Assembly: GCF_900112705.1 (NCBI RefSeq)
Contig: NZ_FOMR01000013.1
Location: 1 to 64,000 of the forward strand
Direction: 5' to 3'
DNA: 64,000 bases
DNA from: Lentibacillus persicus
Lineage (GTDB): Bacteria; Bacillota; Bacilli; Bacillales; Amphibacillaceae
A program made the translations under genes and the position numbers. The notes beneath the pieces were generated by a model. The model saw only the letters and a program-made list of their open reading frames with translations. It was not told where the DNA came from and made no database searches. The first letter of the stretch is position 1; the number at the start of each line of letters is the position of its first letter. Of this stretch, positions 1,109 through 56,206 are shown piece after piece.

Positions 1109-1328
1109 GAATATATCTCCTCCTACCCCTATATTCGAAATTGGAAACAAAAGGGGGGCATGAAACCGAAAACTTTTTATACACTTATGTACGGCTAGTA
1201 ATGCAGGTTCTATTTTGATTAAACTATTTCAAAATGAGGCCTTTATATTTATCTTGAATACGGATGTACAAAGCATCAATTCTCTTCATTATTATTAATT
1301 CCAAATGTCAATAATATATGAGTAGTTC

Positions 1329-1378
1329 CGAACGAAAAGCGAACAAAAAACGAACGAAAAGGCGAACGAATGACGAAC
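1329..1378 (+). repeat. Five phased CGAAC repeats in the operon leader region
   Basis: CGAAC occurs at 1329, 1340, 1351, 1363 and 1374, that is with steps of 11, 11, 12 and 11 bases. Each copy is followed by an A-rich half-turn. All copies therefore face the same side of the helix. The array sits 115-165 bases upstream of the first gene of the conjugation operon. It could be an operator for cooperative binding, an iteron-like site, or part of a leader RNA; the sequence alone does not say which. Confidence 0.75.
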
Positions 1379-1414
1379 AAAAATGCTTCAAAAAGCTGTT
1401 AAATTATTAGTATC

Positions 1415-1472
1415 AGGAAGTTTATAGCTTCCTATTAACTCTTTTCTTTCACGGAAAGGGTTTTTATTTTTG
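1415..1472 (+). promoter_or_regulatory. Leader hairpins with an intrinsic terminator before the conjugation operon
   Basis: AGGAAG (1415-1420) pairs with CTTCCT (1428-1433). Directly downstream, CTTTC (1446-1450) pairs with GAAAG (1454-1458) and is followed by a T-rich run to 1472, giving a terminator-like element only about ten bases before the ribosome binding site of the first operon gene. This layout suggests attenuation or antitermination of the operon. No convincing -35/-10 pair is seen; TAATAT at 1312-1317 is a weak -10 candidate. Confidence 0.55.
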
Positions 1473-1493
1473 CTAGATAAGGAGGTGTAAACC

Positions 1494-1784
1494 GTGTCTA
1501 ATAATGAATTTGGAAAAGCAATGGATAATAATCAGGATAAAAACGTTAAGACAGCTACTAAAGAATCTGCTGAATCTTCATCGAGCAAAGCATCATCAAA
1601 AAGAAGGCGCAGACCAGTTAAACCAGAAGGGTTCAAGGAATTTGAAGAGCTGGCGAAAGGCATTATCGAAGCTGACGGGTCTTCATATTATGAATGGCTT
1701 CATGAGCGACACCAAGAAATCATCTTGAACTTTAATGTATCAAATCAGAAACAGATTACTAATGTAGCGAAGAAAGGAGAGTGA
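1494..1784 (+). CDS. First gene of the conjugation operon, unknown basic protein
   Basis: 96 residues starting at GTG 1494 behind a strong AAGGAGGTG site. The N-terminal half is Asn/Lys/Ser-rich and probably disordered, ending in a basic KRRRRP cluster near residue 38. The second half looks folded and helical (about residues 45-85). There is no membrane segment. It overlaps or abuts the next gene, so translation is probably coupled. No family is recognised. The position, at the head of a type IV secretion operon, and the basic patch would fit a regulatory or nucleic-acid-binding role, but that is only inference. Confidence 0.65.
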   Translation: MSNNEFGKAMDNNQDKNVKTATKESAESSSSKASSKRRRRPVKPEGFKEFEELAKGIIEADGSSYYEWLHERHQEIILNFNVSNQKQITNVAKKGE

Positions 1785-1789
1785 GTTGC

Positions 1790-2023
1790 GTGCAAGACGC
1801 TATTCAAACCATACAGAATATCACAGATGGTATTAAGCCAATTGCACCAGTCTTAGCCGGACTGGTGCTGGTTGTCATTGGGTTATTGTGGACGTTTGCC
1901 AAAGATCCACAGAAAAAGGAAATGTACACAGGATGGATGGTAAACGTTGCAATCGGCTTTGGTATTGTTTATTTGGCTGCCAGTCTTGTTTCTTGGCTGG
2001 GCGGTCGGGTTGTTGGATTTTAA
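1790..2023 (+). CDS. Small two-helix membrane protein, VirB2/PrgF-like position
   Basis: 77 residues from GTG 1790. A GTG at 1781 is in frame, but the AAGGAG at about 1774 is too close to it and well placed for 1790. Two hydrophobic segments (about residues 17-37 and 47-70) flank a short charged loop (KDPQKKEMY), the layout of the small pilin-like or channel subunits (VirB2, PrgF/TcpD type) of Gram-positive conjugation systems. Its place near the front of the operon agrees. The sequence is too short for a firm family call. Confidence 0.6.
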   Translation: MQDAIQTIQNITDGIKPIAPVLAGLVLVVIGLLWTFAKDPQKKEMYTGWMVNVAIGFGIVYLAASLVSWLGGRVVGF

Positions 2024-2035
2024 GGAGGTAAAGTG

Positions 2036-2221
2036 ATGAGTGCTGCGTACAAATATTTCATAAGCTATCTTTATGAAGATGGTGGTGGGAATGTCGATAT
2101 AACATTGGAGGAGCCGATTCAATCGATAGATGACATTCGTGGTATTGAAAAGGCAATCAGTGATGAATTTAATCTGGGTGATTCTGTCACCATTCAAAAC
2201 TTTATAAAGTTAAACAATTAA
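2036..2221 (+). CDS. Small hypothetical protein of the conjugation operon
   Basis: 61 residues. GTG 2033 and ATG 2036 both follow an AAGGAGGT site; the ATG has the better spacing. The protein is soluble and acidic: an Asp-Gly-Gly-Gly-Asn turn, then a short strand, then a helix (about residues 30-46) and a final strand, like a small single-domain fold. It is followed by a terminator-like hairpin at 2232-2257. No function can be read from it. Confidence 0.55.
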   Translation: MSAAYKYFISYLYEDGGGNVDITLEEPIQSIDDIRGIEKAISDEFNLGDSVTIQNFIKLNN

Positions 2222-2231
2222 TTTAATTGGC

Positions 2232-2257
2232 CTTCCAAACGTATGGAAGCTTTTTTT
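2232..2257 (+). terminator. Terminator-like hairpin inside the conjugation operon
   Basis: CTTCCA (2232-2237) pairs with TGGAAG (2244-2249) and is followed by seven T. It lies directly after the gene ending at 2221 and would stop transcription before the next operon genes unless read-through occurs. Confidence 0.65.
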
Positions 2258-2346
2258 AATGAAAAAGTGCTGATGCTGGACAAGAACTTAACATTCTAAC
2301 AAAAAAGAAGGCAGTGAATAATGAAAAAACAAGAGGTGAACACGTA

Positions 2347-2374
2347 GGGCTTCTGTTCAGGGAGTCCTTTTATT
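2347..2374 (+). terminator. Terminator-like hairpin, member of a repeated family
   Basis: GGGCTTCT (2347-2354) pairs with GGGAGTCC (2360-2367), with G-U pairs, and is followed by TTTTATT. It starts at the stop codon of an 8-codon frame (2321-2347, with an AAGAAGG site) and ends next to the ribosome binding site of the gene at 2388. Very similar hairpins recur at 20347, 21082 and 21544. Confidence 0.6.
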
Positions 2375-2387
2375 GGAGGTGACATAA

Positions 2388-3098
2388 ATGAAAATAAAGC
2401 ATAAAGTACTTCCCAATAACAATGGTGTTAAGTCGGCGAATAAGTCATATGAGGCCTTTAAAAAACGATTTTCTACCGTAATGGGCGATCAATTTGACCT
2501 GACGGATGACCAATTAAGACAAATTTATGATGGGATTTCATCCTGTGTTGAAACAAGTATTTATGCGGAAATGGAAGATGTCCTGTCAGCGATACGAAAC
2601 ACCTACCACGCGGATATAAATTGGGTGATAGAAGAAACCGTGAAACTCTCTAAGAAACATCAAAATCAATCAAACAAGTACACCAATGATGGAACATTGA
2701 GGAGTCATAAGTCATTTTCTAATTTGAATAAGGAAGAATATCAAAGTAAACATGGATCATTCAAGCAATTTATCACACATGTAGTTACAAATTATCAATC
2801 ACTCCCAAAACAGAGAATTGATGTACTGGTGATCAAACATGAAGGCTATCAGCATCTTGAACTGACGTTATTTGGTGAGTCCTTCATACAACAACACGGG
2901 TTTAGGACAGCTCATCATCTTCATAACGAATTGATGCATGCCTTTTACACAGCTTTCGATGACTTATTAGCTAAAGGCACAGTCCTGAAATCAGACCAAG
3001 CTATTCAAGAACAAGTTCTTGCACCCGTATTAAAACGATTTGACGCTAAACTAGCTGCTAAAGTGGGTGACAGTTATGAGCAAGTCGAATCCCTATAA
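2388..3098 (+). CDS. Hypothetical protein of the conjugation operon
   Basis: 236 residues from ATG 2388, seven bases after a GGAGGTGA site. The product is soluble, Lys/Gln/His-rich and largely helical, without membrane segments, signal peptide or a recognised motif. A basic linker (about residues 85-110) separates an N-terminal helical part from a C-terminal part with alternating strands and helices. The end overlaps the start of the primase-like gene by about 23 bases, so the two are probably translated together and may act together in processing of transferred DNA. I do not recognise a family. Confidence 0.6.
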   Translation: MKIKHKVLPNNNGVKSANKSYEAFKKRFSTVMGDQFDLTDDQLRQIYDGISSCVETSIYAEMEDVLSAIRNTYHADINWVIEETVKLSKKHQNQSNKYTNDGTLRSHKSFSNLNKEEYQSKHGSFKQFITHVVTNYQSLPKQRIDVLVIKHEGYQHLELTLFGESFIQQHGFRTAHHLHNELMHAFYTAFDDLLAKGTVLKSDQAIQEQVLAPVLKRFDAKLAAKVGDSYEQVESL

Positions 3099-4116
3099 GA
3101 AACTTGTTTTTCAAAATATCGAAGACGCTTTAAGTGATTTGAATGCCGAAGATAAAGGGCGTTATTTTATCTGCAACTGTCCGGAATGTAACCAGCATGA
3201 AGCCTTTATGTATAAGAATAATACACGGTTCATTCAATGTAATCGGGAAAACCATTGTGGCTCACGGATGATGCTTGAATTTTATGAGAAGGGAGACATG
3301 TCAACTTATGAGCAAAGGGTCGAAAAACAGTATCCCGACCTGACGACGGAACAACGGCAGGCCTTGGGCTGGTCACACCGCGTATTCTCCTATGCGAAAA
3401 ACTATTTTAAAAGTGAAGCATTAGACAATGGCTATCGTGGCCTGTCAAAACAGACAACACGTGGTTTTGTAGCTGATTTACAACATGAGGCTATCGTTCA
3501 GCATGTCTTTCAAAAAGCTAAGACCTTATTGAACAAAGATTATTCCAATAATAGTTGGATGTGCAAGCGAAACTTGATTTTTCCGTTATACGGCGAAGAC
3601 CGTACGCTAGATCGTGTTTTACTCCGTTCCAGCATTGATGAAAACCTTGATCCTAAAGAAATACAGCTTATTTTCAATCCCTCAAAAGAAACGAGGGATT
3701 TTTTTATGGACATTCCGCAGGATGCTAAAAATGTGGTGATAAGTGAATCCATCCTGGATGCGTTGTCCTTTCGTGAGATCGATGAGAATGCTGGTATTAT
3801 CGCCCTAACAGGGGCAACCAAAACAAGACAGATCAACGATTATTTGGCCGAACATAAGGAACAGTTTGCGGACAAACAGCTTTTAATCGCCATGGATGAT
3901 GATCAAGCTGGATGGAAGGCAACAAGAGATATCGTGAATACAATCGAAGAGGCTGGAATAGGCAGGGATTGGTCAACTTTTGCTTATTCTCCAGGAACGA
4001 AAGATGCGAACGAAAACTTGCAGCAAAACCGCAAAGCATTCACCAAAACATATGAACAGATGGCAGCACGTACGAAGCAACATGAAAGGGTGATGGACCT
4101 TGAACACGAGCCATAA
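3076..4116 (+). CDS. TOPRIM-domain primase-like protein with zinc-binding N-terminus
   Basis: 346 residues from ATG 3076; GTG 3067 is in frame but lacks a better site. The N-terminal part has a CHC2-like zinc motif, C-x-C-x2-C followed about 20 residues later by C-x5-C (about residues 33-60). The C-terminal half carries TOPRIM features: a Glu in VVISESILDALS and the DxD-type motif MDDDQAG. In DnaG-type primases these bind zinc and catalytic metal. Such proteins are common on conjugative elements, where they may prime complementary-strand synthesis after transfer. The catalytic core between the two motifs is too divergent to judge activity. It overlaps both neighbouring genes. Confidence 0.7.
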   Translation: MSKSNPYKKLVFQNIEDALSDLNAEDKGRYFICNCPECNQHEAFMYKNNTRFIQCNRENHCGSRMMLEFYEKGDMSTYEQRVEKQYPDLTTEQRQALGWSHRVFSYAKNYFKSEALDNGYRGLSKQTTRGFVADLQHEAIVQHVFQKAKTLLNKDYSNNSWMCKRNLIFPLYGEDRTLDRVLLRSSIDENLDPKEIQLIFNPSKETRDFFMDIPQDAKNVVISESILDALSFREIDENAGIIALTGATKTRQINDYLAEHKEQFADKQLLIAMDDDQAGWKATRDIVNTIEEAGIGRDWSTFAYSPGTKDANENLQQNRKAFTKTYEQMAARTKQHERVMDLEHEP

Positions 4117-6382
4117 GCCATTGACCGAACGATTAAGTAATTGGCAGTTTATTGTGCCTTTGATATTGCTTATCGTCATATCGGGCTTCTTTCTAGCAAA
4201 CTTTCTATTACACTTTTTCCAGCAAGTGCTGCATTTGATTGAGGGTTTTGCCAACAATCCGGAACAAGTCAACTTGAACACATTCTCAGTTGATTGGGAA
4301 TACGTGTTCATCTTTCAGAAAGAATGGCTTGAGTTTTATATAGGCTTTTATATCCTGATCGGGATCAGTCTTCTAAAACTCTTGTATAACATCAAAATGA
4401 ATTATCAAACCATTAACCGTGGGCAACATGGTACGAATGAATTTGAATCCGTGAAAAACATGAAGAAACAGTACCAAATTATTCCGGCATCCAAAACAGA
4501 ATATGACGGAAAGGGCGGTACAATTGTTGGCGGATTGCAGGAGGCAGGTAAACCATACCGCCTTTTACTGGACGATGCCCCTGTTCACACAATGGTCATT
4601 GGGATTACACGTTCCGGTAAGGGTGAGACATTTGTGGTTCCGATGATTGATGTCCAAAGCAGGGCGAAAGAGAAACCCTCCATGGTCATTAATGATCCGA
4701 AAGGGGAACTGGCTGGTGCCTCTTATGAAACTTTAAAAAATCGTGGCTATGACGTGTACGTGTTTAATCTGATAGAGCATGCCATGAGCATGGGATTCAA
4801 TCCCTTACAGTTAGTGATTGATTCATGGAAACAGGGCAGGGTGAGTGACGCGCAAAAATATGCCAACAGTGTGGCATTCAGTTTGTATCATAATCCAAAT
4901 GCCAAAGATCCGTTCTGGTCAAACAGTGCAAAATCACTGGTGACAGCTATTATTTTAGCCTTAACGGAGGACATGGTGAAAATCGGCAAGGAAGAACGGG
5001 TGACCATGTACTCTGTTGCTAATTTCCTTTCCAGTAAGGGAAGTGAAACGGATGAAGAAGGGAATAATGCTTTGGACGAATTCTTCCAGGCACGGGATGA
5101 GAATAATCCGGCACGGTTAATGTATGCCACAAGTAATTTTTCAACCGGCAATACAAGGGGCAGTATCTTCAGTGTTGCGATGGATAAACTGCAAATCTTT
5201 ACACTTGAACCGAACGCGAAAGTAACTGGTCATAACAGTTTGGATTTAACTGAAATCGGTTTTGGTGATAAACCAGTAGCTGTCTTTTTAGCGACACCTG
5301 ATTCAGACAAGTCAAATGATGTATTGGCCAGTATCTTTGTTAGTCAGTTGTACCGTGTCAATTCGGAAAAAGCAACTAAAAGCAAGAACGGCAAAATGAA
5401 ACGGCATGTGCAATTCATTTTGGATGAGTTTGGGAATATGCCGGCGATCGATGGGATGGCAAGTATGGTAACGGTAGGGGCTGGACGCGGCTTCAGGTAT
5501 CACTTAATCGTTCAAGCCTATTCGCAAGTGAAATCGGCTTATGGTGAAGAATCGGACACGATTATTGGCAACTGTTCCAATCAAATCTATATCCTCACCG
5601 AAGATAAGAGTACGGCTGAACATTATTCGAGCATGCTTGGAGCTAAAACAATTACCGATGTCAGCCGCAGTGGTGATTATCATTCATTTGATAAGTCGCA
5701 CAGTGAATCGACAAAAGAACGCTCGCTTTTAACGTCTGATGAATTGATGCGGTTAAAAGAAGGTCAGTCGGTATTGATACGCGTGAATAAACGGCAGGAC
5801 AAGAACCGAAAAAAGATTGAGCCAAAACCGACTTTTAACCAAGATAAAACCAGTCATAAATTCCGTTATCAGTATTTAGCCGATGACTTTGATACAGACC
5901 ATTCCATCATGATGCTCCCAATTATGTCCGAAACGTATCATGATATGGATTTAAACAGTATGGTTTATTCGGCCAAATCAAATGATGATTTATTTTTACG
6001 AATGGCTGACGTACTGACAAATAAGGAATTTGAACGATTTAAACGACACATCTTACAGATTGAACAAAGTCAGGGTGAACTGGATGAAGAAAAAACCAAA
6101 GCATTGCTTCAAGAGGTTGATCACTGGTCGTTTCTTCATTATATGAGTTTCATTGTCCATCATCCTCATTTTTCACGCATACACTTAAAAATATTGGCAG
6201 CATTACAGAATTATCTTCCGGCAGACGTGATGCAAACATGGCAGGATAAAGCAACGAAACAAATTGAAGAACAGGTGCATCAAAATGAGAAAGCTAATCA
6301 AAGAGCCGATCATCATGCATCAGATGAACAATCCCATGAAGATCAAGAAGCTGAAAAATTACGGGAACAGGCACTATCTTAA
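4100..6382 (+). CDS. Type IV secretion coupling ATPase, VirD4/TraG family
   Basis: 760 residues from TTG 4100, preceded by AAAGGGTGA and overlapping the primase-like gene by 17 bases. Two N-terminal membrane segments (about residues 15-45 and 75-100) anchor a large cytoplasmic ATPase. Walker A is GITRSGKGET (about residue 170), followed by INDPKGEL, and Walker B is FILDEFGN (about residue 445), all diagnostic of VirD4/TraG. In the family, the hexamer brings the relaxase-DNA complex to the secretion channel and powers export. The C-terminal 100 residues are charged and probably disordered. The length is at the upper end of the family. Confidence 0.92.
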   Translation: MNTSHKPLTERLSNWQFIVPLILLIVISGFFLANFLLHFFQQVLHLIEGFANNPEQVNLNTFSVDWEYVFIFQKEWLEFYIGFYILIGISLLKLLYNIKMNYQTINRGQHGTNEFESVKNMKKQYQIIPASKTEYDGKGGTIVGGLQEAGKPYRLLLDDAPVHTMVIGITRSGKGETFVVPMIDVQSRAKEKPSMVINDPKGELAGASYETLKNRGYDVYVFNLIEHAMSMGFNPLQLVIDSWKQGRVSDAQKYANSVAFSLYHNPNAKDPFWSNSAKSLVTAIILALTEDMVKIGKEERVTMYSVANFLSSKGSETDEEGNNALDEFFQARDENNPARLMYATSNFSTGNTRGSIFSVAMDKLQIFTLEPNAKVTGHNSLDLTEIGFGDKPVAVFLATPDSDKSNDVLASIFVSQLYRVNSEKATKSKNGKMKRHVQFILDEFGNMPAIDGMASMVTVGAGRGFRYHLIVQAYSQVKSAYGEESDTIIGNCSNQIYILTEDKSTAEHYSSMLGAKTITDVSRSGDYHSFDKSHSESTKERSLLTSDELMRLKEGQSVLIRVNKRQDKNRKKIEPKPTFNQDKTSHKFRYQYLADDFDTDHSIMMLPIMSETYHDMDLNSMVYSAKSNDDLFLRMADVLTNKEFERFKRHILQIEQSQGELDEEKTKALLQEVDHWSFLHYMSFIVHHPHFSRIHLKILAALQNYLPADVMQTWQDKATKQIEEQVHQNEKANQRADHHASDEQSHEDQEAEKLREQALS

Positions 6383-6403
6383 TAGGGAAGGGAGTGAACA
6401 ATC

Positions 6404-6658
6404 GTGAAAGAACCAAAATATCGTGTCGATTGGCGTGTAATTGAAGAAATTGCCGTATTGCATGAAAGTCAGGCAGGCTGGACGAAAGAACTTAACATTA
6501 TTAGCTGGAACGGTGATGAACCGAAATATGATGTGAGGTGGTGGAATCCGGATAAAACGAGGCTCGGCAAAGGATTTACGTTTACGGAAAAAGAGCTAGG
6601 TAAGCTAAAATCGATTATTAATATAAGATTACCGGACGATGTGGATAGGACAAGTTAA
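6404..6658 (+). CDS. PC4/YdbC-family single-stranded DNA-binding protein
   Basis: 84 residues from GTG 6404 after a GGGAGTGA site. The motif order (EIAVL, GWTKELNIISWN, EPKYDVRWWNPD, GKGFTFTEKEL) is that of the YdbC group of PC4-like proteins, a Whirly-like fold that binds single-stranded DNA as a dimer. Genes of this type are frequent in Gram-positive conjugative elements, next to secretion genes. Here it follows the coupling ATPase by 22 bases, so a role in handling the transferred strand is plausible. The fold call is good; the exact role is inference. Confidence 0.8.
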   Translation: MKEPKYRVDWRVIEEIAVLHESQAGWTKELNIISWNGDEPKYDVRWWNPDKTRLGKGFTFTEKELGKLKSIINIRLPDDVDRTS

Positions 6659-6724
6659 CCATTTCAAGTGCTAAAGAGGGCTGTTATACTGGTGTCAAAA
6701 GGGTATATGGGAGATGATGGTAAC

Positions 6725-7312: not shown

Positions 7313-7328
7313 TTAAGTAACTATAAAA

Positions 7329-7358
7329 AAGAGCTTACCTCTGGGTAGGTTCTTTTTT
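7329..7358 (+). terminator. Strong terminator-like hairpin inside the conjugation operon
   Basis: AAGAGCTTACC (7329-7339) pairs with GGTAGGTTCTT (7344-7354) around a four-base loop and is followed by further T. The VirB6-like gene starts 27 bases later with no clear promoter between, so the downstream secretion genes depend on read-through, antitermination or an unseen promoter. Confidence 0.75.
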
Positions 7359-7385
7359 ATGTCAAAAATGGAAGGAAGTGTATTA

Positions 7386-9314
7386 ATGCAGGATAATCTG
7401 AAAAAGCTGTATGAAGATTTAGCAGGAATATTAGATTTGAGCAGTGGATGGCTCTATGATGACCTCCTACGAAACATTGGATGGGGAATTATTCAAGCAT
7501 TAGTTTGGATTAACAACTGGATCGAAGGTGTGGCAACGGATGTTGTCACACTAGGCGGGGTGTATGATAATCCAGCCATGAATCGCTTTATCGAAACGAT
7601 TCAGCCTTATGTGTTTGGCATGTTTGTTGTCACACTAACCGTTGTAGGATTTCAGTTTATGCTGAATAAAATTGAAAAACGAAATGAAGTATTGATGAAT
7701 GTTTTAATTGCTGTAAGTGTCATTGTCATTCTACCGACTATGATGAGTATGATGGATGATTTATTGAACGAAGGCATAACCGCATTAGATGAACCCGGAA
7801 CACTATCCGATAATGTCCTTAAACGGAATATCGCGGATGTGATGTATTATGTTAATACTGGATTTAATTATGCCAATGGAAGCAATGAGGAGACCGTGGC
7901 AGGCAATGAAAATTTGCTTCCACATCCACCAGACCCCGAAAATAAAGACATCGGGACAACGGATTATACGTTCGGAAATCAATTAGAAGATCCTTCTTCA
8001 ATTGAAGTGAATGAAAAACTGGATGTTCAACAAGATGAAGGCTGGTTTAATTGGACTACGAAGCCGTGGGTAGATGAATTGAAAGAAAAACAAGACAACG
8101 GTGGGAAAGGATATGATTTTTTAACACAACGCCTTGTTTCAACAGGTGATGGTGGCACAAGGATAGTTGATTTAAACGAAAATACAGTACCAGCTACCAA
8201 TTTGGGACAACAAAGCTATTACAGGTATCATGTTAACTGGGGTATTGCCATAGCGACATTGGCTGTAACGGCATTTGCATTAGTGATTACAACCATCAAA
8301 ATCGGGCGTGCCATGTTTGATTTGGCATTCCATCAATTATTTGCCATGTTCACCGCGGCAACGGACTTAACGGGCGGTCAACGCTTGAAGAAAGTGTTAG
8401 TCGAGATTTCCAGTACATTCGCTGTCATTTTTGTGATGATGGTGCTGTTACGGATGTTTATCATTTATGCCCAATGGGCGAATAACATGGAACAACATAT
8501 TGGCATTATCGGTACTATCTTACTGTTGATTGCTGGTGCGTGGGCATTAATTGATGCGCCTGATATTGTGCAACGGTTGTTGGGAATTGATGCCGGACTG
8601 CGCTCTGGCTGGCAGGCTATGATGGGCGGTTATGCTGCAAGTCGTATGGTTGGTGCAGGTGGTAAAATGGCAGCCGAAGCAGGGGGTAAAACCCTTAAAG
8701 CAGGAGGCAAAATTGGCGGTGGCGCGGTTGCTGGTGGCACTGGCATGACAAGAGCATTGAAAAATAACAGCCATCTGAAACCAATGCCTTCCCGTCGACA
8801 AGCTGGATCACCACGTCAAGAAGGCCAGTTTTCGACAAATATGATGAACGGAGATGCTTCACGTTATGAAAACAACGGAGGGAGTACGGTTGGGAAAGGC
8901 CAACCGACTCAGGAAGCTCGACCGTCATCTGTTAATTCGCAAAGTCAACAATCTTCCACTATGAGTTCCGAGCATTCAGGTGGTGTCACACCATCATCAA
9001 TTCATGGTGGCCAGTCGCAAGAACCATCTGGCCAAGTTAATATCCCGACAGCACCTAAGATGACGAATAAGCCAGGTTCTGGTCATTCAGATGGCCATAT
9101 TTATCCAAAGCCAAAACATACGTTGTTTGGTGGAAATCGTACAGTGCAGCGAGCCGGCCACTTCCTGACACGGGCACATAACACTGGTTATGATGCAGGA
9201 CAGAAAATGAAGTATGTTCGTGGCAGTATTAAGGATAAAAAGGATGTGCAAAAGCCAAAAGATATGCAAAGGGGCCTGAGAGACAATGACATACGAGATT
9301 CCAAAAGAGATTAA
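7386..9314 (+). CDS. VirB6/TrbL-like polytopic membrane protein
   Basis: 642 residues. ATG 7386 follows a GGAAGG site; the in-frame ATG 7359 lies within the terminator tail and is rejected. Membrane segments are visible at about residues 35-50, 80-110, 115-135, then after a long extracellular loop at about 290-320, 345-375 and 380-400. A Gly/Ala-rich stretch, and a Ser/Gln/Pro-rich disordered tail of over 200 residues, complete it. This architecture matches the VirB6/TrbL/PrgH-type inner-membrane channel component of type IV secretion systems. The last 29 bases overlap the VirB3-like gene. Confidence 0.8.
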   Translation: MQDNLKKLYEDLAGILDLSSGWLYDDLLRNIGWGIIQALVWINNWIEGVATDVVTLGGVYDNPAMNRFIETIQPYVFGMFVVTLTVVGFQFMLNKIEKRNEVLMNVLIAVSVIVILPTMMSMMDDLLNEGITALDEPGTLSDNVLKRNIADVMYYVNTGFNYANGSNEETVAGNENLLPHPPDPENKDIGTTDYTFGNQLEDPSSIEVNEKLDVQQDEGWFNWTTKPWVDELKEKQDNGGKGYDFLTQRLVSTGDGGTRIVDLNENTVPATNLGQQSYYRYHVNWGIAIATLAVTAFALVITTIKIGRAMFDLAFHQLFAMFTAATDLTGGQRLKKVLVEISSTFAVIFVMMVLLRMFIIYAQWANNMEQHIGIIGTILLLIAGAWALIDAPDIVQRLLGIDAGLRSGWQAMMGGYAASRMVGAGGKMAAEAGGKTLKAGGKIGGGAVAGGTGMTRALKNNSHLKPMPSRRQAGSPRQEGQFSTNMMNGDASRYENNGGSTVGKGQPTQEARPSSVNSQSQQSSTMSSEHSGGVTPSSIHGGQSQEPSGQVNIPTAPKMTNKPGSGHSDGHIYPKPKHTLFGGNRTVQRAGHFLTRAHNTGYDAGQKMKYVRGSIKDKKDVQKPKDMQRGLRDNDIRDSKRD

Positions 9315-9594
9315 GGCCAAACCGAAGATTTTAGGATTGGAAATGCGAGAGCTAGTCATTCTATTGATTAGCTCTCTTTTAGTTTTAACGATTTTGCGGG
9401 ATTTAGTTCACAGCGTTTTTATGATTCCGTACTTTTTGACCGTGATCGGCTTCATGATTTATCTGTTTATGCCATCCGGGCACAATCCGAAAAAAAGACA
9501 TTATGAATCACTCATTCTATATTTTCGTCATAAAAAAACTGGTTACTATGCCATGGATAAACACAAGCAAGAGAACAGTCAATTGCGTGAATAA
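9286..9594 (+). CDS. VirB3/PrgI-like membrane protein
   Basis: 102 residues from ATG 9286, inside the end of the previous gene. A basic N-terminus (PKEIKAKPKILGLEMREL) precedes two adjoining hydrophobic helices (about residues 27-42 and 46-63), followed by a basic cytoplasmic tail. This matches the DUF5592/PrgI-type VirB3 analogues, which dock the VirB4 ATPase at the membrane. Its position directly before the VirB4-type genes agrees. Confidence 0.8.
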   Translation: MTYEIPKEIKAKPKILGLEMRELVILLISSLLVLTILRDLVHSVFMIPYFLTVIGFMIYLFMPSGHNPKKRHYESLILYFRHKKTGYYAMDKHKQENSQLRE

Positions 9595-9617
9595 CGTGTA
9601 ACGGAAGGAGGTTAGCA

Positions 9618-10250: not shown

Positions 10251-10264
10251 AAAGGATGAAAACG

Positions 10265-12193
10265 ATGGCAATGCAGATGAAACAAACAGGAAAACCGAAA
10301 CCACCTCAGCTGGATAAGGATTTTCTGACAGCAATCCAACCACAAGGCGGTATTCGTTTTCAAGACAAATATATTAAAAAAGGAGACGGCTATGAAGCGT
10401 GTATCCATGTTTTTGAATATCCATCCAGTGTCGATGTGTTATGGCTCGATAAAATTATGGCCATGTATGATGTGACCGTTGTAACAGATGTCGCAACAAT
10501 GAATCAGGATGAGACGGTGAGCGCCATTAATAAAAGTATGGTGGAACAGGATGTCCGGTTCAGAAGCTCCAAGCATGAATCAGAACGGATGGATGCGCAA
10601 CGTGGTTATCAGGAGATGGAAGACTTATATCGCCAAATAAGTGAAATGGGGGAGATCATTAAATTACTGCATATTCGCTTATTCGTGGCGTCACCAACCA
10701 TATGGGAACTGGAAAAGAAAGTGGAACGAACCATGTCCAAATTACAGTCATTCGGGTTTAAAGGTCAAATCTTTTTGAATGAAACGTATTGGGAATGGCA
10801 GTCTCTATTTTTACCCTACGAACAACAACTGGCGCTTCCAAACAAACGAGAAGGAAAAGGCATGCCGGCTGTGACACTTGCATCAGGTCTGCCGTATCAT
10901 TTCTCAGAATTAAATGATCGAACCGGCAGTTATTTAGGGACATCGTTTACAGGAGGAAATGTACTGTTTGATCTCTTTCATAAGGATAAAATGAGACGGT
11001 TTTTTAATGCAGTGGTTGTCGGAAAGATGGGTGCCGGTAAGTCAACGACACTCAAGAAGTTATTGATGGATAATGAAGCACGTGGCCATTTTATTCGCGG
11101 TTTTGACGTAACGGGTGAATTTAAGACCCTTGTTCAGTCCGTGAACGGCCACACGATTAGTCTCGATGGCAGTGATGGCGTCATCAATCCACTGCAAATC
11201 TTTCGTACAGAAGACAATAGTAATCCGGAAAAGAATGAAGAAATCAGTTTTATGCAGCACATATCAAAGGTGGCAACCTTTTATATGTTTTTGGCCGGTA
11301 GCCCTTCCTCTGAAGAAATTGAAGAATTCAAAAAGGTACTGCGCCTATTTTATGATTCACTTGGTTTCACGGATAAAATTCATACAATAGGTATTACGTC
11401 ACTGGCTAATGAGGACTATCCCATTTTCAGTGACTTTTTAAGATTCATTCGTGATCAACTCTATGTCAGTACTGAAAAACGAATCATTCGTTCAGAACTA
11501 TCATCCACGAGGGTTAAGCGACTCGAAAAAATTGAATTGGTAATTGATAATCTGGTGAACAGTTTTTCGTATTTGTTTAATGGCCATACAACAATTCCTG
11601 ACATTACGAATGAACAAGTAATCTTCTTTTCAATCCGTAATTTAACCGGACTCGAAAAAAGTGTGTTCAATGCCCAAATGTTTAACGCATTGAACTTAAT
11701 TTGGGATAACTTGATTCAAATAGGCTCGTCACAAAAGCAGCTCATGTATGATGATGAATCGTTTGATATTGATGAAGCGACACGTTTTTTGGTCATGATT
11801 GATGAAGCTCATCGACTGGTTAATTCGGAAAATATGCTGGCGGTTAAGTTTTTAACAGACTTTGCACGTGAAGCACGGAAATATTTCGGTGGCCTCATTT
11901 TGGCCAGTCAATCCATCCGTGATTTTGTGCCAGACCATTCTGATACAGACACGGTTACCAAAATACGGACGTTATTTGAACTCACCCAATATAAATTTGT
12001 GATGCAGCAGGATTCTAATTCCTTGGATACGTTACGGACCGTTTTTGAAGGGCAGCTGACAGACAGTGAATTAGAACATGTTCCGCAACTCCAACAAGGA
12101 GAATGCTTATTAAGTATCAGTGGTGTTGGCAATTTAATGTTATCCATTGAAGCATCAGATGAAGAATTGCATTTGTTTGAGGGGGGCTTGTAA
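10265..12193 (+). CDS. VirB4/TrsE-like conjugation ATPase
   Basis: 642 residues. ATG 10265 has the right distance from AAAGG at 10251, whereas ATG 10256 directly abuts it. Walker A is VVVGKMGAGKSTT (about residue 255) and Walker B is FLVMIDEAHRL (about residue 515), followed by an ILASQS sensor motif. In the VirB4 family the hexameric ATPase drives channel assembly and substrate transfer at the membrane. The N-terminal 230 residues are the CagE/TrbE-type region. It works with the TrsD-like protein upstream and the VirB8-like one downstream, whose ATG overlaps its TAA region. Confidence 0.92.
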   Translation: MAMQMKQTGKPKPPQLDKDFLTAIQPQGGIRFQDKYIKKGDGYEACIHVFEYPSSVDVLWLDKIMAMYDVTVVTDVATMNQDETVSAINKSMVEQDVRFRSSKHESERMDAQRGYQEMEDLYRQISEMGEIIKLLHIRLFVASPTIWELEKKVERTMSKLQSFGFKGQIFLNETYWEWQSLFLPYEQQLALPNKREGKGMPAVTLASGLPYHFSELNDRTGSYLGTSFTGGNVLFDLFHKDKMRRFFNAVVVGKMGAGKSTTLKKLLMDNEARGHFIRGFDVTGEFKTLVQSVNGHTISLDGSDGVINPLQIFRTEDNSNPEKNEEISFMQHISKVATFYMFLAGSPSSEEIEEFKKVLRLFYDSLGFTDKIHTIGITSLANEDYPIFSDFLRFIRDQLYVSTEKRIIRSELSSTRVKRLEKIELVIDNLVNSFSYLFNGHTTIPDITNEQVIFFSIRNLTGLEKSVFNAQMFNALNLIWDNLIQIGSSQKQLMYDDESFDIDEATRFLVMIDEAHRLVNSENMLAVKFLTDFAREARKYFGGLILASQSIRDFVPDHSDTDTVTKIRTLFELTQYKFVMQQDSNSLDTLRTVFEGQLTDSELEHVPQLQQGECLLSISGVGNLMLSIEASDEELHLFEGGL

Positions 12194-12873
12194 TGGCAAA
12201 ACGGGTTCTTTACAAGTTTATATTTCTTCTCATCGTTGCTTTGTTAATCATAGCCGTATATGTCTGGAAATGGACAGCCGATGAAGAACAAGAGCAACAA
12301 AATCCTGAGAGTTTATTCGATGAATCACAGCAAGAAACCGAGCAACCGCCAGCACTTCAGGAAGACAAAATTAATGAAGCATTAGATGCTAAACCAGACT
12401 CAAATGCTGCAGATGATACACAGAATGACACAGAAAATAAGGCTAATCAGCAAACGGAAGATCAACATGAAACCACCTATCAAAAACAATTTGGTGCGCA
12501 GGCTGTCACTACTGCAAAGGAGCAGGCTCAGGAAGGGCTTGCGCTTTATTTATCGCAAATCACCGATTGGGATAAATGGGACGGGGTTGTTACAGCTTCA
12601 TTTCTGGAAGAAATCAAACAAGACATTCCAGAAGTGAAAGAAGCAAATGTTGAACGGCGTATTGAATCGATTGAACTGTTTGCTTCTGATGCAACACAAA
12701 AAAACAACATGACATTCGGTGCATTTGCTTCATGGCATGTCACATCAAATGGACGACTAACCAATCAGCGCACGCAGCTTTTTTACGTGACCATGGTGCA
12801 ACAAAACGATCAATGGCTGGTGAACAACATGGTAACCCCTGATGACGGGATGGAAGGAAAGAAGGCTAAATGA
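12193..12873 (+). CDS. VirB8-like membrane-anchored conjugation protein
   Basis: 226 residues from ATG 12193, overlapping the end of the VirB4-like gene. One N-terminal membrane helix (about residues 6-25) is followed by a long Gln/Glu/Asp-rich linker (30-95) and a C-terminal globular domain with helices and strands (about 100-218). This is the layout of VirB8/TcpC-like proteins with an NTF2-like external domain, scaffolds of the channel outside the membrane. Similarity is in architecture more than in identical residues, so the family call is moderate. Confidence 0.7.
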   Translation: MAKRVLYKFIFLLIVALLIIAVYVWKWTADEEQEQQNPESLFDESQQETEQPPALQEDKINEALDAKPDSNAADDTQNDTENKANQQTEDQHETTYQKQFGAQAVTTAKEQAQEGLALYLSQITDWDKWDGVVTASFLEEIKQDIPEVKEANVERRIESIELFASDATQKNNMTFGAFASWHVTSNGRLTNQRTQLFYVTMVQQNDQWLVNNMVTPDDGMEGKKAK

Positions 12874-13997: not shown

Positions 13998-14019
13998 ACA
14001 TGGAAGGTGTGATGATTTT

Positions 14020-15042: not shown

Positions 15043-15051
15043 CAGTCAAAA

Positions 15052-15157
15052 CCTATATAAAACCTATATAGACACCTATATAATAGCTATATAATCGCTT
15101 GAGGAAATGGGCTTACCGGAAAACTAGGCGCTGCCTAGTTCCCCACCTTGTGTGGGG
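15052..15157 (+). other. Candidate origin of transfer (oriT)
   Basis: Between the last secretion gene and the relaxosome genes lie, in order: four CTATATA repeats at 15053, 15064, 15076 and 15087 (steps 11, 12, 11); a perfect inverted repeat AACTAGGC (15122-15129) / GCCTAGTT (15133-15140) with a three-base loop; and CCCCAC (15141-15146) / GTGGGG (15152-15157). Phased repeats for auxiliary proteins next to adjoining hairpins, immediately upstream of ribbon-helix-helix-like and relaxase genes, are the usual oriT layout. The nic site is not identifiable from sequence alone. Confidence 0.65.
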
Positions 15158-15302
15158 ACATTTTCCCCTTATCCTGTTCAACACTATTTGCGCTCTCATG
15201 AAGATGCTCCATTTATTGAAGCGATTTGCCAAAGAGGGAAGGCATTCACATCCTATTGTAGTGTGAGCATGCAGCAAATAAACAGAAAGGAATGATGCAA
15301 TA

Positions 15303-15623: not shown

Positions 15624-15637
15624 GGAGATGATGATAA

Positions 15638-16099: not shown

Positions 16100-16102
16100 A
16101 AC

Positions 16103-17347
16103 ATGAGTAGTCCTGCGGTTGTGTTACGAAGCAAATTTGTTACACCTGGGTCCAATACTTTTAACGATTACATTAATTATATCGATCGTGAAGATGCCAA
16201 ACGTCATATTCATGTGAACCAGTCATCCAAAGATACGGATGATTTTTTTGTCTTTCATAACTTCATGGATTATATGGATGATGAAGCAAAACAAGGTGAT
16301 TTATTCACTAAAGATAACGATCAATTGAATGCGAATGACAAGAAAACGTTGAAGCAACAATTTCAAAAAGCACAACAAAATGAATCACCTATGTGGCAGG
16401 ATGTGATTAGTTTTGATAATGAATGGTTGGCGAAACAGGGCCTCTATAACCCGACAACACATTCTGTCGATGAAGCAAGCATGCGCAAGGTTGTCCGTGA
16501 AACAATGGACACTGTCCTCCGATCAGAAGGTATGGAAAAATCAGCTGTATGGACAGCATCGTTACATTATAATACCGACAACATTCATGTCCATATTGCT
16601 TCTACTGAAACACATCCAACTCGTGAAAGAATGGATGTATTCGATAAGGAAAGTCAAACATGGCGGAAAGAATACCGTGCAAAACGTAAGCCCAAGACAC
16701 TGGATAAAATGAAATCCAAAGTGGCCAACATGATTCTGGATAGAACGCATGAACGGCATAAAATTGATGACCTTGTTCGTGGAACCGTTCATCATAAAAA
16801 AGAACATGGTGTTTCCTTGGCCACTTATCGCAAAACAAAAACATTATTTCAGGAAGCCATGAACCATCTTCCATCGGATAAGAAACAATGGCGATATGGT
16901 TATCAATCGATAAATGAAGCAAGACCGTATATAGATGACATAACAACGATTTATCTGCAGCAATTTCATGGTGATGATATGGAACAGCTGCACCAGCAAT
17001 TGGATGATGAAGTGAACGTCATGAAAGAGATGTATGGTGGAGGAAGTGACTATGAGCAATATAAACAAACAAAACTCGATGATTTGAAGAAGCGTATGGG
17101 GAATGCGGTGCTGTCTGAGATGCGTAACTATGCGAAAGCGCAAAACGATTTATCGTTTCAGCCAAAACGATTAAATAGATGGCAATCTTTCAATCAGCAG
17201 CAGTCATTTACTAATTCAAACCAGACTGTTTATGCGTTTAATGCTTCTATGATGAAGTTAAGTAAAGCCATGCGGAGAACATTTCATGACTATCAAAAAG
17301 ACCGAAACCTGCAGGAATTTGACCGGCTAATGGATGGCTACGAATAA
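16103..17347 (+). CDS. MobL-family relaxase
   Basis: 414 residues from ATG 16103. The N-terminal region (PAVVLRSKFV, then FNDYINYIDREDA) supplies the tyrosines typical of MobL/MobP-like relaxases, and SLHYNTDNIHVHIASTETH carries the HxH metal-binding motif of the HUH fold (about residues 150-170). The relaxase nicks oriT, stays bound to the 5' end and is exported with the strand through the VirD4-coupled channel. The C-terminal half is helical and basic. Length and neighbours (two auxiliary genes before, Mrr-like nuclease and topB after) match MobL-type elements of Gram-positive bacteria. Confidence 0.85.
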   Translation: MSSPAVVLRSKFVTPGSNTFNDYINYIDREDAKRHIHVNQSSKDTDDFFVFHNFMDYMDDEAKQGDLFTKDNDQLNANDKKTLKQQFQKAQQNESPMWQDVISFDNEWLAKQGLYNPTTHSVDEASMRKVVRETMDTVLRSEGMEKSAVWTASLHYNTDNIHVHIASTETHPTRERMDVFDKESQTWRKEYRAKRKPKTLDKMKSKVANMILDRTHERHKIDDLVRGTVHHKKEHGVSLATYRKTKTLFQEAMNHLPSDKKQWRYGYQSINEARPYIDDITTIYLQQFHGDDMEQLHQQLDDEVNVMKEMYGGGSDYEQYKQTKLDDLKKRMGNAVLSEMRNYAKAQNDLSFQPKRLNRWQSFNQQQSFTNSNQTVYAFNASMMKLSKAMRRTFHDYQKDRNLQEFDRLMDGYE

Positions 17348-17367
17348 ATAAAAAGGTGGTGGCGTGA

Positions 17368-17886
17368 GTGGACAATGTATACTTCTTATTTAGTATTATA
17401 GTGATGGCGCTATTTGTTTTTCCAATGATTATAAAATACGTTAAGAAGAAAAAACGGATTAACCTAATGAAAAGATCAGGCATAAGAGATATTGATCGTA
17501 TGAAAGGCTATCAATTTGAAGTGTACCTCCAAGTGTTGTTTAAAGAATTAGGGTATCGGCCGGTTGTGACACAAAAATCAGGTGACTACGGAGCTGATGT
17601 GGTGCTGAAAGGCAGAAATAAAATTGTGATACAGGCAAAGCGCTATGGTACTAAACACAAAGTGAGCATGGATGCCGTACGTGAAGTATTGGCAGCCATG
17701 TTTTTTTATAAGGCAGAGGAAGCGTGGGTGATTACGAACTCCTTTTTTACCAAACAAGCTAAAACATTAGCCAAAGCATGCGGTGTTACATTATTAGATC
17801 GTTATGAATTGGAAGCGTTTATTGTAAAAATTAATCCAACGAAGCAGCCGAAACAATTCACAAGGAAAAGGAGCGAATTGCGTTGA
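17368..17886 (+). CDS. Membrane-anchored Mrr-like restriction endonuclease domain protein
   Basis: 172 residues from GTG 17368 after AAAAGGTGG. An N-terminal membrane helix (about residues 3-23) and a basic linker precede an Mrr_cat-type nuclease domain: G-x-x-FE near residue 50, then GDYGADVVL and IQAKRY, which supply the D and QxK of this PD-(D/E)xK subgroup. Mrr-like nucleases cut methylated or foreign DNA. In a conjugation operon, between relaxase and topB, and tethered to the membrane, a role in processing DNA at the channel is possible. The four-base overlap with topB indicates coupled translation. Confidence 0.8.
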   Translation: MDNVYFLFSIIVMALFVFPMIIKYVKKKKRINLMKRSGIRDIDRMKGYQFEVYLQVLFKELGYRPVVTQKSGDYGADVVLKGRNKIVIQAKRYGTKHKVSMDAVREVLAAMFFYKAEEAWVITNSFFTKQAKTLAKACGVTLLDRYELEAFIVKINPTKQPKQFTRKRSELR

Positions 17887-20012: not shown

Positions 20013-20029
20013 TATGGCATGGATATGAT

Positions 20030-20371
20030 GTACGTAAATGGTGAGTATCGAGTAGTTGATGTTGGGTAAGGAATCAAGCATTGTACGCGGAATCTGGAAT
20101 CCGTAATTTATATGTTTGTAGAATTCACACCAGTATCCTTGTATAAGAATCTGGTGCATTAGAAGATATGTTGGATGTATATAACTAGAAGAATTATTAA
20201 AACAGCTTATTATTATGTGTCAGCAGTTGCAAACGGTCTTCTTTGATAGGGATAATCCATTAACATTTGAATTAAAATGATTTTCCGAGGTTTCGGCAGT
20301 AATGCTAGGTGATGAAATTAGAAATAATTATGATGTGAAAATGTGAGGACTTCGGTTGGGAGTCCTTTCTT
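20030..20371 (+). pseudogene. Decayed copy of the small downstream gene family
   Basis: The frame at 20030 reads MDMMYVNGEYRVVDVG and stops at TAA; the intact gene at 20838 starts MDLYVNGAYQSVDIG, clearly the same beginning. The following 270 bases hold no open frame, but end with codons YDVKM and TGA at the point where the related genes end FDMEM (21543) and HDMDM (20756), each followed closely by a hairpin or another gene. The stretch is best read as the remains of one or two duplicated genes of this cluster. Nothing else is visible in it. Confidence 0.55.
20347..20370 (+). terminator. Terminator-like hairpin, repeated family
   Basis: GGACTTC (20347-20353) pairs with GGAGTCC (20359-20365), followed by TTTCTT. 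It directly follows the TGA of the decayed gene and resembles the hairpins at 2347, 21082 and 21544. Confidence 0.6.
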
Positions 20372-20396
20372 CATGACTAGAAAGGATGAATGAATT

Positions 20397-20756
20397 GTGG
20401 AAAAAGATAAAAGAGAAATATATGTGGGGAAAGCTGACGTATATCTTATTCATGGATTGGAGTTAGATGTTGAGTTTGATTATATTTCACAGACAGAACA
20501 CACAGCAGCAATCCTTGAATTAGAGGATTATATACAGGAAGAAGGCATACATCCAGTTAAAAGTGAGAACGGTTTTGTTGATACGGAGGAAGATACGATT
20601 GTTTATATTCCCAAAACAGGGGAGATTGATTATGCTGTTGGTTTTTATGGTCAAGATCTCTTAGAAAAAGATCATCGAACAGAACAGCTATTAGAAAAGC
20701 GAAATAAGCTATCTGATAAAAGTAAGAAAGAATATAAGCACGATATGGACATGTGA
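20397..20756 (+). CDS. Hypothetical protein of the mobile element
   Basis: 119 residues from GTG 20397 after AAAGGATGA. It is soluble and acidic, with alternating short strands and helices in the first 75 residues and a charged Lys/Glu-rich tail that ends DMDM. No motif or membrane segment is visible. The tail resembles that of the gene at 21124 (ending FDMEM), which hints at common ancestry of the cluster's ends. The function is unknown; as a non-essential cargo gene after the transfer module it could be an anti-host or maintenance factor, but nothing shows it. Confidence 0.55.
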   Translation: MEKDKREIYVGKADVYLIHGLELDVEFDYISQTEHTAAILELEDYIQEEGIHPVKSENGFVDTEEDTIVYIPKTGEIDYAVGFYGQDLLEKDHRTEQLLEKRNKLSDKSKKEYKHDMDM

Positions 20757-20837
20757 GCAGGGATACTCTTTTCGCCTCGTTGTCAGAAGGGTGAATTTGA
20801 TGCAGACTAGTATTTGTGTATTCGAAAGGGTGATTAT

Positions 20838-21065
20838 ATGGATTTGTATGTAAATGGCGCATATCAGTCTGTTGATATTGGTTATGTGAAAGAAATTAAA
20901 GAATCCAGTGTCGTATTCATTGTCAATGACGGTAAAGTCGAAATAGCTATTGATCCTGTTACACTGGATGCAATTCAAACGATTATTCAAGTGGATGAAG
21001 ATGCTTTGATTCCCTTAGATTTGGAGACGAAAACTGTCATCTTAGATGGTGAGCCAACCAAATAA
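20838..21065 (+). CDS. Small hypothetical protein of the mobile element
   Basis: 75 residues from ATG 20838 behind GAAAGGGTGAT; an in-frame TTG at 20814 lacks a site. The sequence is acidic with regular short strands (LYVNGAYQSVDIG, SVVFIVNDGKVEIAID, KTVILDGEP), suggesting a small beta-rich domain. A truncated paralogue lies at 20030. The gene is followed by a terminator-like hairpin at 21082. Confidence 0.55.
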   Translation: MDLYVNGAYQSVDIGYVKEIKESSVVFIVNDGKVEIAIDPVTLDAIQTIIQVDEDALIPLDLETKTVILDGEPTK

Positions 21066-21081
21066 AGCGACGTTTTTCAAG

Positions 21082-21108
21082 AGGACTTCCATTTAGGGAG
21101 TCTTTTTT
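21082..21108 (+). terminator. Terminator-like hairpin, repeated family
   Basis: GGACTTCC (21083-21090) pairs with GGGAGTCT (21096-21103) around ATTTA and is followed by six T. The next gene's GGAGGTGATG site begins about ten bases later. Confidence 0.7.
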
Positions 21109-21123
21109 ATTTTGGAGGTGATG

Positions 21124-21543
21124 ATGGTGCAAAACGTTTATAAGATTGTTTCATCCTTTGAAGCGAATTGTCCGGCTAAATTCGTCATGAAGGATGGAAA
21201 GAAACAGAAAGAAGTGACTATAGGCATATGGAATCCAGAGCCGGATGACAGGGATGACTTGTATGTTTGCTTATTTAACCCGGCTGAATATGAAACACCA
21301 GGGTTGAATGACTGGGACGATGCATTAGATGTTTTTCAAATGGACGACATTCTGACACCAGATGCCTATGGTCAGTTACAAAGTGCGCTTTTTGATTATG
21401 AGGCGCATTTTGAGATCGCATTAACTGAAAAAGACTTTTCAATTCATCCGACTGAAATATTGGACGATGAACTGAAAGGTGAATCGGCTAAAGAACAGAT
21501 GAGATCGAATGAGAAGGAACAACAATTTGATATGGAGATGTGA
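21124..21543 (+). CDS. Hypothetical protein of the mobile element
   Basis: 139 residues from ATG 21124, five bases after GGAGG; in-frame starts at 21112-21121 are too close to the site. The protein is acidic and soluble. It has an N-terminal strand-rich part (residues 4-60), with an aromatic-rich YVCLFNPAEYETPGLNDWDDALDVF stretch covered only in part here as YVCLFNPAEY and DDALDVF, then a helical part and a polar tail ending DMEM. No family is recognised. It is directly followed by another hairpin of the repeated terminator family. Confidence 0.55.
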   Translation: MVQNVYKIVSSFEANCPAKFVMKDGKKQKEVTIGIWNPEPDDRDDLYVCLFNPAEYETPGLNDWDDALDVFQMDDILTPDAYGQLQSALFDYEAHFEIALTEKDFSIHPTEILDDELKGESAKEQMRSNEKEQQFDMEM

Positions 21544-21570
21544 GGGCTTCCTTCGTGGAGGTCCTTTATT
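21544..21570 (+). terminator. Terminator-like hairpin, repeated family
   Basis: GGGCTTCC (21544-21551) pairs with GGAGGTCC (21557-21564), followed by TTTATTATTT. It begins at the base after the stop codon of the preceding gene. Confidence 0.6.
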
Positions 21571-25752: not shown

Positions 25753-25753
25753 C

Positions 25754-55947: not shown

Positions 55948-55954
55948 AAAGAAA

Positions 55955-56177: not shown

Positions 56178-56179
56178 TT

Positions 56180-56206
56180 GACCGCCGGTGTTTATCGGCG
56201 GTTTTT
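56180..56206 (+). terminator. Terminator of the toxin mRNA
   Basis: ACCGCC (56181-56186) pairs with GGCGGT (56197-56202), continuing into TTTTTCTT. Confidence 0.85.

Follow-up and report, generated by a model that had tools for sequence, protein, structure and literature searches.

A conjugation operon of Lentibacillus persicus with coding-strand terminator-like hairpins and a conserved leader block: a candidate for processive antitermination without conAn

We analysed 64,000 nt of DNA from Lentibacillus persicus (contig NZ_FOMR01000013.1, positions 1 to 64,000 of the forward strand, assembly GCF_900112705.1), referred to here as the window, which carries a MobL-type conjugation operon on one strand from 1494 to ~23.4 kb. 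T-tailed hairpins resembling intrinsic terminators lie between and inside the genes of this operon, on its coding strand only, and are conserved in related operons. A near-invariant block stands at the operon start, directly before the first gene, and conAn, the processive antitermination system of plasmid pLS20, was not found. We infer that the hairpins terminate transcription and are bypassed, and that the block acts as promoter and loading site. The explanation that we favour from the sequence evidence, with about even confidence, is that the 20-kb operon is a processive-antitermination conjugation operon without conAn, with the block at ~1329-1480 as the likely loading site.

Hairpins between and inside the operon genes

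A preliminary description, made from the letters of the window, had listed seven terminator-like hairpins between operon genes, and all seven lie on the coding strand where it placed them (this strand, +, is that of all window hairpins and operon genes given here). A folding-plus-tail score recovered six of them: leader hairpin 2 (described below), the weak hairpin at 2229-2251 (-7.1 kcal/mol), and those at 2347-2367 before gene 4 (GGGCTTC..GGGAGTCC), at 7329-7354 directly before the gene of the VirB6-like protein, at 21081-21105, and at 21544-21564 before the ardC-like gene. The one missed, at 20347-20365 (GGACTTC..GGAGTCC), has a good fold and a broken, weak T-tail (TTTCTTCAT). In the 1,337 nt of intergenic DNA of the operon, the score found six T-tailed hairpins on the coding strand and none on the opposite strand, compared with a mean of 0.14 and a maximum of two in 300 dinucleotide shuffles. 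At a stricter cut (folding free energy dG ≤ -9, tail ≥ 3.2) five pass, with 0.03 expected.

Six of the seven hairpins end 4-40 nt upstream of the next start codon (starts as read here); the exception ends at 2251, where the next element downstream is the hairpin at 2347. These gaps fit the earlier observation that no clear promoter follows the hairpins, and they suggest that the downstream genes can hardly have promoters of their own there. VirB6, VirB4 and the relaxase would therefore have to be reached through several terminators. Our comparison set comprised 18 operons, some of them closely related and some found via the leader search described below, with VirD4 about 70-97% identical to that of the window. 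The hairpin before VirB6 (7329-7354) is kept in 17 of the 18 although its sequence differs between lineages. At window positions 2222-2387, relatives carry a gene of ~204-211 aa (e.g. L017 7550-8185) that the window lacks.

Four of the hairpins had been described as sharing the sequence GGxCTTC..GGAGTCC. We found it in strict form (GGRCTTC..GGAGTCC) in three, at 2347, 20347 and 21083 (the last ends in T, not C), whereas the hairpin at 21544 carries only a variant, GGGCTTC..GGAGGTCC. In three whole genomes, GGRCTTC-N3-8-GGAGTCC had six matches, all six inside these operons (reversed control: one), and ordinary host terminators were thus rejected as the origin of the shared sequence. By eye, 20019-20070 resembles a degenerate copy of the start of the gene at 20814-21065, followed by one of the shared hairpins; the small accessory genes near 20019-21065 may shuffle, each with its own hairpin. 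The first leader hairpin (1416-1432, GGAAGU..ACUUCC) and the hairpins at 2347-2367, 20347-20365 and 21081-21105 (GGACUUC..GGGAGUCC) have nearly the same arms in swapped order, so that the 3' arm of the leader could pair with the 3' arms of the terminators, though the likeness is perhaps due to chance.

An element-specific hairpin sequence and a next start at most 40 nt away in six of the seven intergenic cases, with the ribosome site directly behind, would also suit hairpins that act post-transcriptionally, in RNA processing, 3'-end protection or translation control of the next gene. We consider such a role very improbable, because the T-tails are kept and T-tailed hairpins also occur inside reading frames.

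Six of these intragenic hairpins, again on the coding strand, had escaped the preliminary description, and the operon is longer and denser in hairpins than it had appeared. They lie within the primase-like (Toprim) gene (3676-3700; B. badius has the same hairpin at L037 18340-18366), near the start of the PrgI/DUF5592 gene (9347-9376, -18.4 kcal/mol), twice within virB4 (11260-11287, in the window only, and 11398-11434, lost in more distant relatives), within mobL (16221-16244) and within the Mrr-like gene (17666-17701). Over the whole operon (1494-23425), stringent hits, i.e. predicted terminators, number ten on the coding strand and none on the opposite strand, some of them at -15 to -18 kcal/mol.

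We compared intragenic counts with those in genes whose codons had been shuffled among synonyms (40 shuffles per gene, dG ≤ -9). The window has six sense hairpins where 0.80 are expected (highest shuffle: four), and no antisense hairpin where 0.95 are expected. In the 18 related operons (286 gene copies, after exclusion of those with an open frame shorter than 70% of the expected length), the test gave 78 sense hits versus 7.9 expected and 12 antisense hits versus 11.7, with the reservation that the operons are related and the 78 hits are not 78 independent events. The contrast persisted at other cut-offs, with sense and antisense counts of 40 versus 0 (dG ≤ -12) and 91 versus 32 (-7). A scan of whole operons showed intragenic hairpins at the same codons in many relatives (dG ≤ -8, tail ≥ 3.2): in the primase gene of 16 of the 18 operons, in g13 of 14, and in prgI and mobL of 11 each; the window's own g13 copy, near 12520-12544, is below the cut. 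The 12-bp stem in prgI pairs in 215 of 216 cells over the 18 operons, and two of its 12 pairs have changed on both sides with pairing kept.

The same shuffling was applied to other plasmids and to host genes (intragenic hits, with expected numbers in brackets). For pLS20, processive antitermination has been published (PMC8955417), and pAMbeta1 is reported there to lack such a system. pLS20 had eight sense (0.85) and three antisense hits (2.48), with 18 coding-strand and four opposite-strand hits overall; pAMbeta1 had one (0.23) and two (0.50), with one and two overall. Two sets of host genes from 40-64 kb of the window together yielded one sense (0.82) and one antisense hit (0.81), and the four cargo genes behind the operon no intragenic hairpin on either strand (counted without shuffles). 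Exiguobacterium had three sense (0.40) and no antisense hits (1.40), Priestia two (0.50) and none (0.65), Planococcus, with a conAn2-like RNA, none (0.23) and two (1.77). Among two more distant plasmids, from B. badius (VirD4 62% identical) and P. larvae (53%), the latter had three sense (0.38) and two antisense hits (1.35). pLS20 displays the sense-only signature, which pAMbeta1 and the host genes lack; B. badius, P. larvae and Planococcus give no clear picture of it.

A number of stems are of modest strength (-7 to -13 kcal/mol), with T-tails that are interrupted. In addition, a looser consensus terminator scan of both strands found 17 hits in the first 20 kb versus 14.2 ± 3.6 expected, which is chance, and 20 versus 11.0 ± 2.9, an excess, at 20-40 kb. 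What sets the hairpins of the first 20 kb apart is thus their quality, strand and position and not how many there are. Modest stems and a chance result would be expected if there were no antitermination and weak or leaky terminators gave a downward expression gradient (polarity) and damped stray transcription. We regard this as unlikely: the combined effect of ten stringent coding-strand hairpins should leave the distal genes almost silent, and pLS20, for which antitermination has been published, has the same signature.

The leader block and its relatives

The preliminary description had suggested that the leader may hold an antitermination element of a new type. A near-invariant block is indeed present there, for which we propose such a role. 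From 5' to 3' it consists of phased repeats, an extended -10, ATTAGTATCA, two hairpins and then the ribosome site GGAGGTG. The five direct repeats CGAAC(R)AAA are spaced 11-12 nt apart (1329-1379; the third copy, at 1351, by direct reading), and the last GAACA ends 20 nt upstream of the -10 hexamer. A second repeat class (GGRTACAAAA-like) occupies the same position in six relatives.

The repeats are followed by ~80 nearly invariant nt comprising TG-N-TANANT, ATTAGTATCA, GGAAGU..ACUUCC and a T-tailed hairpin. In the window, the putative extended -10 reads TG-N-TAAATT (1397-1405). It is followed by TATTAGTATCA (1405-1415), read as the initial transcribed sequence, by leader hairpin 1 (1416-1432), with an almost invariant stem and a variable loop, and by leader hairpin 2 (1437-1472), which has a T-tail, resembles an intrinsic terminator and is conserved in sequence. 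TG-N-TANANT occurs in 20 of 21 leaders (20 from the family and that of B. badius), with AG instead of TG in one remnant (L189). TATTAGTATCA is invariant in the 20 family leaders, which were themselves found by searching for this sequence, and also occurs in B. badius. A -10-like TAGTAT lies within the invariant first-transcribed sequence, right after the -10. The ~65 nt after the putative start, including much of the loop and the T-tail of hairpin 2, are about as invariant as the promoter. We read the repeats and TG-N-TANANT as a probable promoter that lacks a -35, and the conserved stretch that follows as the presumptive first ~65 nt of the RNA.

In 16 relatives, identity to the window was 74-93% in the block, 18-90% in the repeats, 23-59% in the 200 nt upstream of the repeats and 68-94% in the first 600 nt of virD4. 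The block is better kept than the DNA upstream of it and, in the distant relatives, mostly better kept than virD4 as well. A covariance model built without the window recovered the window leader at 95 bits.

VirD4 proteins at least 70% identical to that of the window marked 13 operon copies in eight of 149 genomes (the window's own genome, G000, included), and two further genomes had matches at 43%. Twelve of the 13 close copies carry the block; the remaining one, L026, has a contig edge at its start. Among named genomes, a scan found eight loci, from Lentibacillus and Virgibacillus. Of 159 family genomes, 13 contained the 19-nt leader core, at 20 sites in all, and the reversed control matched nowhere. 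Seventeen of these sites are followed by the gene series from gene 1 to mobL, in some cases with broken genes; behind L186 there is part of the series, behind L190 an interrupted first gene and behind L189 none of it. This last site (17641-17727, genome G040) is a solitary block without an operon near a HerA-type ATPase-like gene and appears to be the remnant of an element.

Beyond the family, the core with up to two mismatches occurred at 19 places in 398 genomes of the class (the window's included) versus ~28 for the reversed control, i.e. without excess. In 397 genomes of the order, leader model R1 found G030 and G000 as well as seven weak matches that by eye resemble ordinary terminators or unrelated DNA, and the combined pattern of -10 and ATTAGTATCA found three genomes, the third with a B. 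badius-type leader. A blastn search of the leader against phages and plasmids gave no match, and the same search also misses the B. badius leader. The 20-nt core had no match in viral contigs; among the viral contig pattern matches listed (at least 127 sites), inspection upstream of the core found TG in eight of 127 and the repeat array in none. Similarity in G007 ends on the left ~280 bp upstream of the core, and a search for the ends of the element found no clean empty site. Upstream insulator terminators are present in some relatives only and were hence not used as evidence.

B. badius shares the repeats, the -10 (its version of the region is TGCTATATT) and ATTAGTATCA, which are followed by a different sequence with a strong terminator-like hairpin. 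Sharing of this part but not of the hairpin sequences would be expected if antitermination is real and the block is only a regulated promoter with an attenuator. On that view an activator would bind the repeats, TG-N-TAAATT would serve as the -10, and some other gene of the element or of the host would supply the antitermination factor. The use of one and the same position by two repeat classes points the same way, as do the phased ~11-nt repeats, whose distance to a TG-N-TANANT box with the -10 core positions kept is constant. TAGTAT right after the -10 would also fit a promoter-proximal pause. We nevertheless find a promoter-only block somewhat doubtful. The ~65 nt past the putative start are about as invariant as the promoter, whereas the sequence of the VirB6 hairpin changes. 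Moreover, Pfam recognised no regulator among the operon genes, and none was seen by eye among the open reading frames of at least 80 aa in G007 (two of which were searched).

Comparison with known antitermination systems

Homology of the window operon to conAn was rejected on the basis of tblastn, nhmmer and regular-expression searches. With ConAn1 as query, tblastn had no match in the window and a best E of 5.4 (L035) in 20 related loci, at limited sensitivity to very diverged homologues; the same search gave matches near the operon starts of Exiguobacterium (9e-5), Planococcus (0.037) and Priestia (0.05). The nhmmer profiles for conAn2 were built from seven Bacillus, three Exiguobacterium or all ten conAn2-like RNAs (sequence profiles, not covariance models). 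They and the regular expression found no conAn2 in the window, and in related loci only hits at E ≥ 1.8. L040 and L212 were strong matches, and L210 (Planococcus) reached 3.5e-16 with the Exiguobacterium profile. ConAn1 and conAn2 were likewise not found in B. badius or P. larvae. The diverged conAn2-like RNAs at L210 17888-18154 (Planococcus) and L212 17766-18073 (Exiguobacterium) have ConAn1-like proteins upstream and lie on plasmids with MobP2 conjugation genes. In pLS20, the RNA after the ConAn1 gene folds as a structure of ~300 nt, and a sister plasmid annotates the preceding gene as ConAn1.

The first gene of the operon (1494-1784), encoding 96 aa with a basic N-terminal half, was considered as a substitute for ConAn1 and rejected. 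It is homologous to the pilin-adjacent gene in B. badius and P. larvae and is not ConAn1, and a similar small gene (YEEWL..QHQ, by eye) stands directly after the conAn2-like RNA of Exiguobacterium. NusG/LoaP-type antitermination was also rejected, as G000 has no extra NusG. Among 11 genomes, NusG is single in G000 and eight others, and G007 and G011 have one extra match each, just over the cut-off and far from the operons.

pLS20 (PMC8955417) shares with the window a long MobL/MobP2 conjugation operon with related genes of the type IV secretion system (T4SS), internal terminator-like hairpins mostly on the coding strand, a T-tailed hairpin upstream of the first gene and control elements at the 5' end of the operon. 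The antitermination that we propose for the window would resemble that of Tn916 canT, which, according to PMC11658703, acts in cis on the conjugation operon of an integrated element and has a terminator near the left end. The same source places canT between orf8 and xis, and the active fragments for which a length is stated measure 341-452 nt and have complex folds, whereas the window block is short and at the operon start, a comparison of size and place. From pLS20 the window differs in that its leader is short, with two hairpins, where pLS20 has a ~300-nt RNA, and that ConAn1 and conAn2 were not found.

The put RNA consists of two short hairpins close to the promoter. Together with EAR of the eps operon, put of phage HK022 is described in PMC11658703 as an RNA-only antiterminator. 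In contrast to put and EAR, the second leader hairpin of the window is itself terminator-like; put was set beside it by description only, and the leader had no Rfam match, EAR included. Indeed, Rfam 15 found nothing in the leader at the gathering score or at E ≤ 1, and the only match in 1100-2450 at E ≤ 1 is a sub-threshold, opposite-strand snoRNA within gene 1. Elsewhere in the window, Rfam matched a group II intron end (247-331), a BsrG RNA (55954-56200) and Bacillaceae-1 RNAs (47702-47768 and 52429-52494). In the Q system of phage lambda at pR'-tR', a -10-like box and, immediately behind it, a terminator follow the promoter, which has a protein site beside it. The likeness of the window block to it is one of layout only, and no Q-like protein was identified. 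Searches of an open library turned up no account of the block, nor of conjugation operons in which synonymous choice maintains intragenic terminators; the conAn papers of 2021 and 2023, which lie outside that library, may discuss terminators inside pLS20 genes.

Operon genes, proposed mechanism and meaning

The first part of the operon encodes the small gene 1, a T4SS pilin (T4SS_pilin/TrbC, 1781-2023), the Toprim primase-like protein, a VirD4-type coupling protein (4100-6382), a PC4-like protein and a VirB6-like membrane protein of the pLS20_p028 type (NCBIfam conj_pls20_p028, 7359-9314; true start perhaps 7386). The later part encodes PrgI/DUF5592, a VirB4-like ATPase (TraG P-loop, 10256-12193), an M23 peptidase, the MobL relaxase (16103-17347), the Mrr-like nuclease, a topoisomerase I, small accessory genes and an ArdC/LPD25 protein. 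As read from the sequence, a probable oriT at 15043-15302 has four phased CTATATA-type repeats and the short inverted repeats ACTAGGCGCTGCCTAGT and CCCCACCTTGTGTGGGG; it lies directly upstream of two small genes that precede the relaxase. Cargo follows behind the operon: a type III restriction system (23797-28723) and then KwaB-/KwaA-like genes (Kiwa anti-phage defence, 28964-30462), whose NCBIfam scores are under the library cut-offs.

Antitermination, which the preliminary description had proposed from the hairpins, gains indirect support: as in pLS20, terminator-like hairpins on the sense strand only are conserved both between genes and within them. In the mechanism that we propose, RNA polymerase would be made terminator-resistant near the operon start. 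The hairpins between and inside genes would be functional intrinsic terminators, whose task is to stop stray transcripts that begin elsewhere. The likely loading site is the conserved block (~1329-1480). Its phased repeats would bind a protein and its extended -10 would act as promoter; the invariant sequence presumably transcribed first and a short invariant hairpin come next. Leader hairpin 2 would be the first terminator that the modified polymerase must pass before gene 1.

Several results weigh against this mechanism, besides the relatedness of the 18 operons and the chance result of the looser scan. Synonymous-codon conservation is clearly raised only at the primase site (5 of 341 windows as high); it is weaker at prgI (12/97), mrr (16/157), g13 (35/221), mobL (68/409) and g15 (63/351), and not raised at the virB4 site (335/652). 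The block does not exceed the VirD4 DNA in conservation among near relatives (83-93% versus 75-94%). Covariation analysis of the leader stems found no pair with a double change, and shuffles did equally well; the stems are too invariant for this analysis to show an RNA role, and the DNA itself may have a role, as promoter. For part of the block, an activator-dependent promoter is at least as good a reading. B. badius had intragenic hits on both strands (three sense versus 0.62 expected, three antisense versus 0.95) though it shares the repeats, the -10 and ATTAGTATCA. Lastly, no antitermination protein came to light: family searches with gene 1 gave no convincing match, and G000 has one NusG and no paralogue of the LoaP/RfaH kind.

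More tentatively than the antitermination itself, we suggest that the block may be the first representative of a small class of processive antiterminators, poor in protein components, that serve conjugation operons of Gram-positive bacteria. Either ~65 nt of the nascent transcript, or a complex like that of Q assembled on the phased repeats and a promoter-proximal pause, would make the polymerase ignore ~10 terminators over 20 kb, several of them in reading frames and kept by synonymous codon choice.

The synonymous-shuffle test separated one positive control (pLS20) from one negative control (pAMbeta1), the only pair tried, and a sense-only excess of intragenic terminators may help to find antitermination-dependent operons from sequence alone. 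The candidate block is short, self-contained and small enough for direct genetic and structural work on how the polymerase becomes terminator-resistant. If our explanation is true, stray transcription of a long and costly operon would be a problem that conjugation operons have solved independently more than once, by conAn in some lineages and by the leader block in others.

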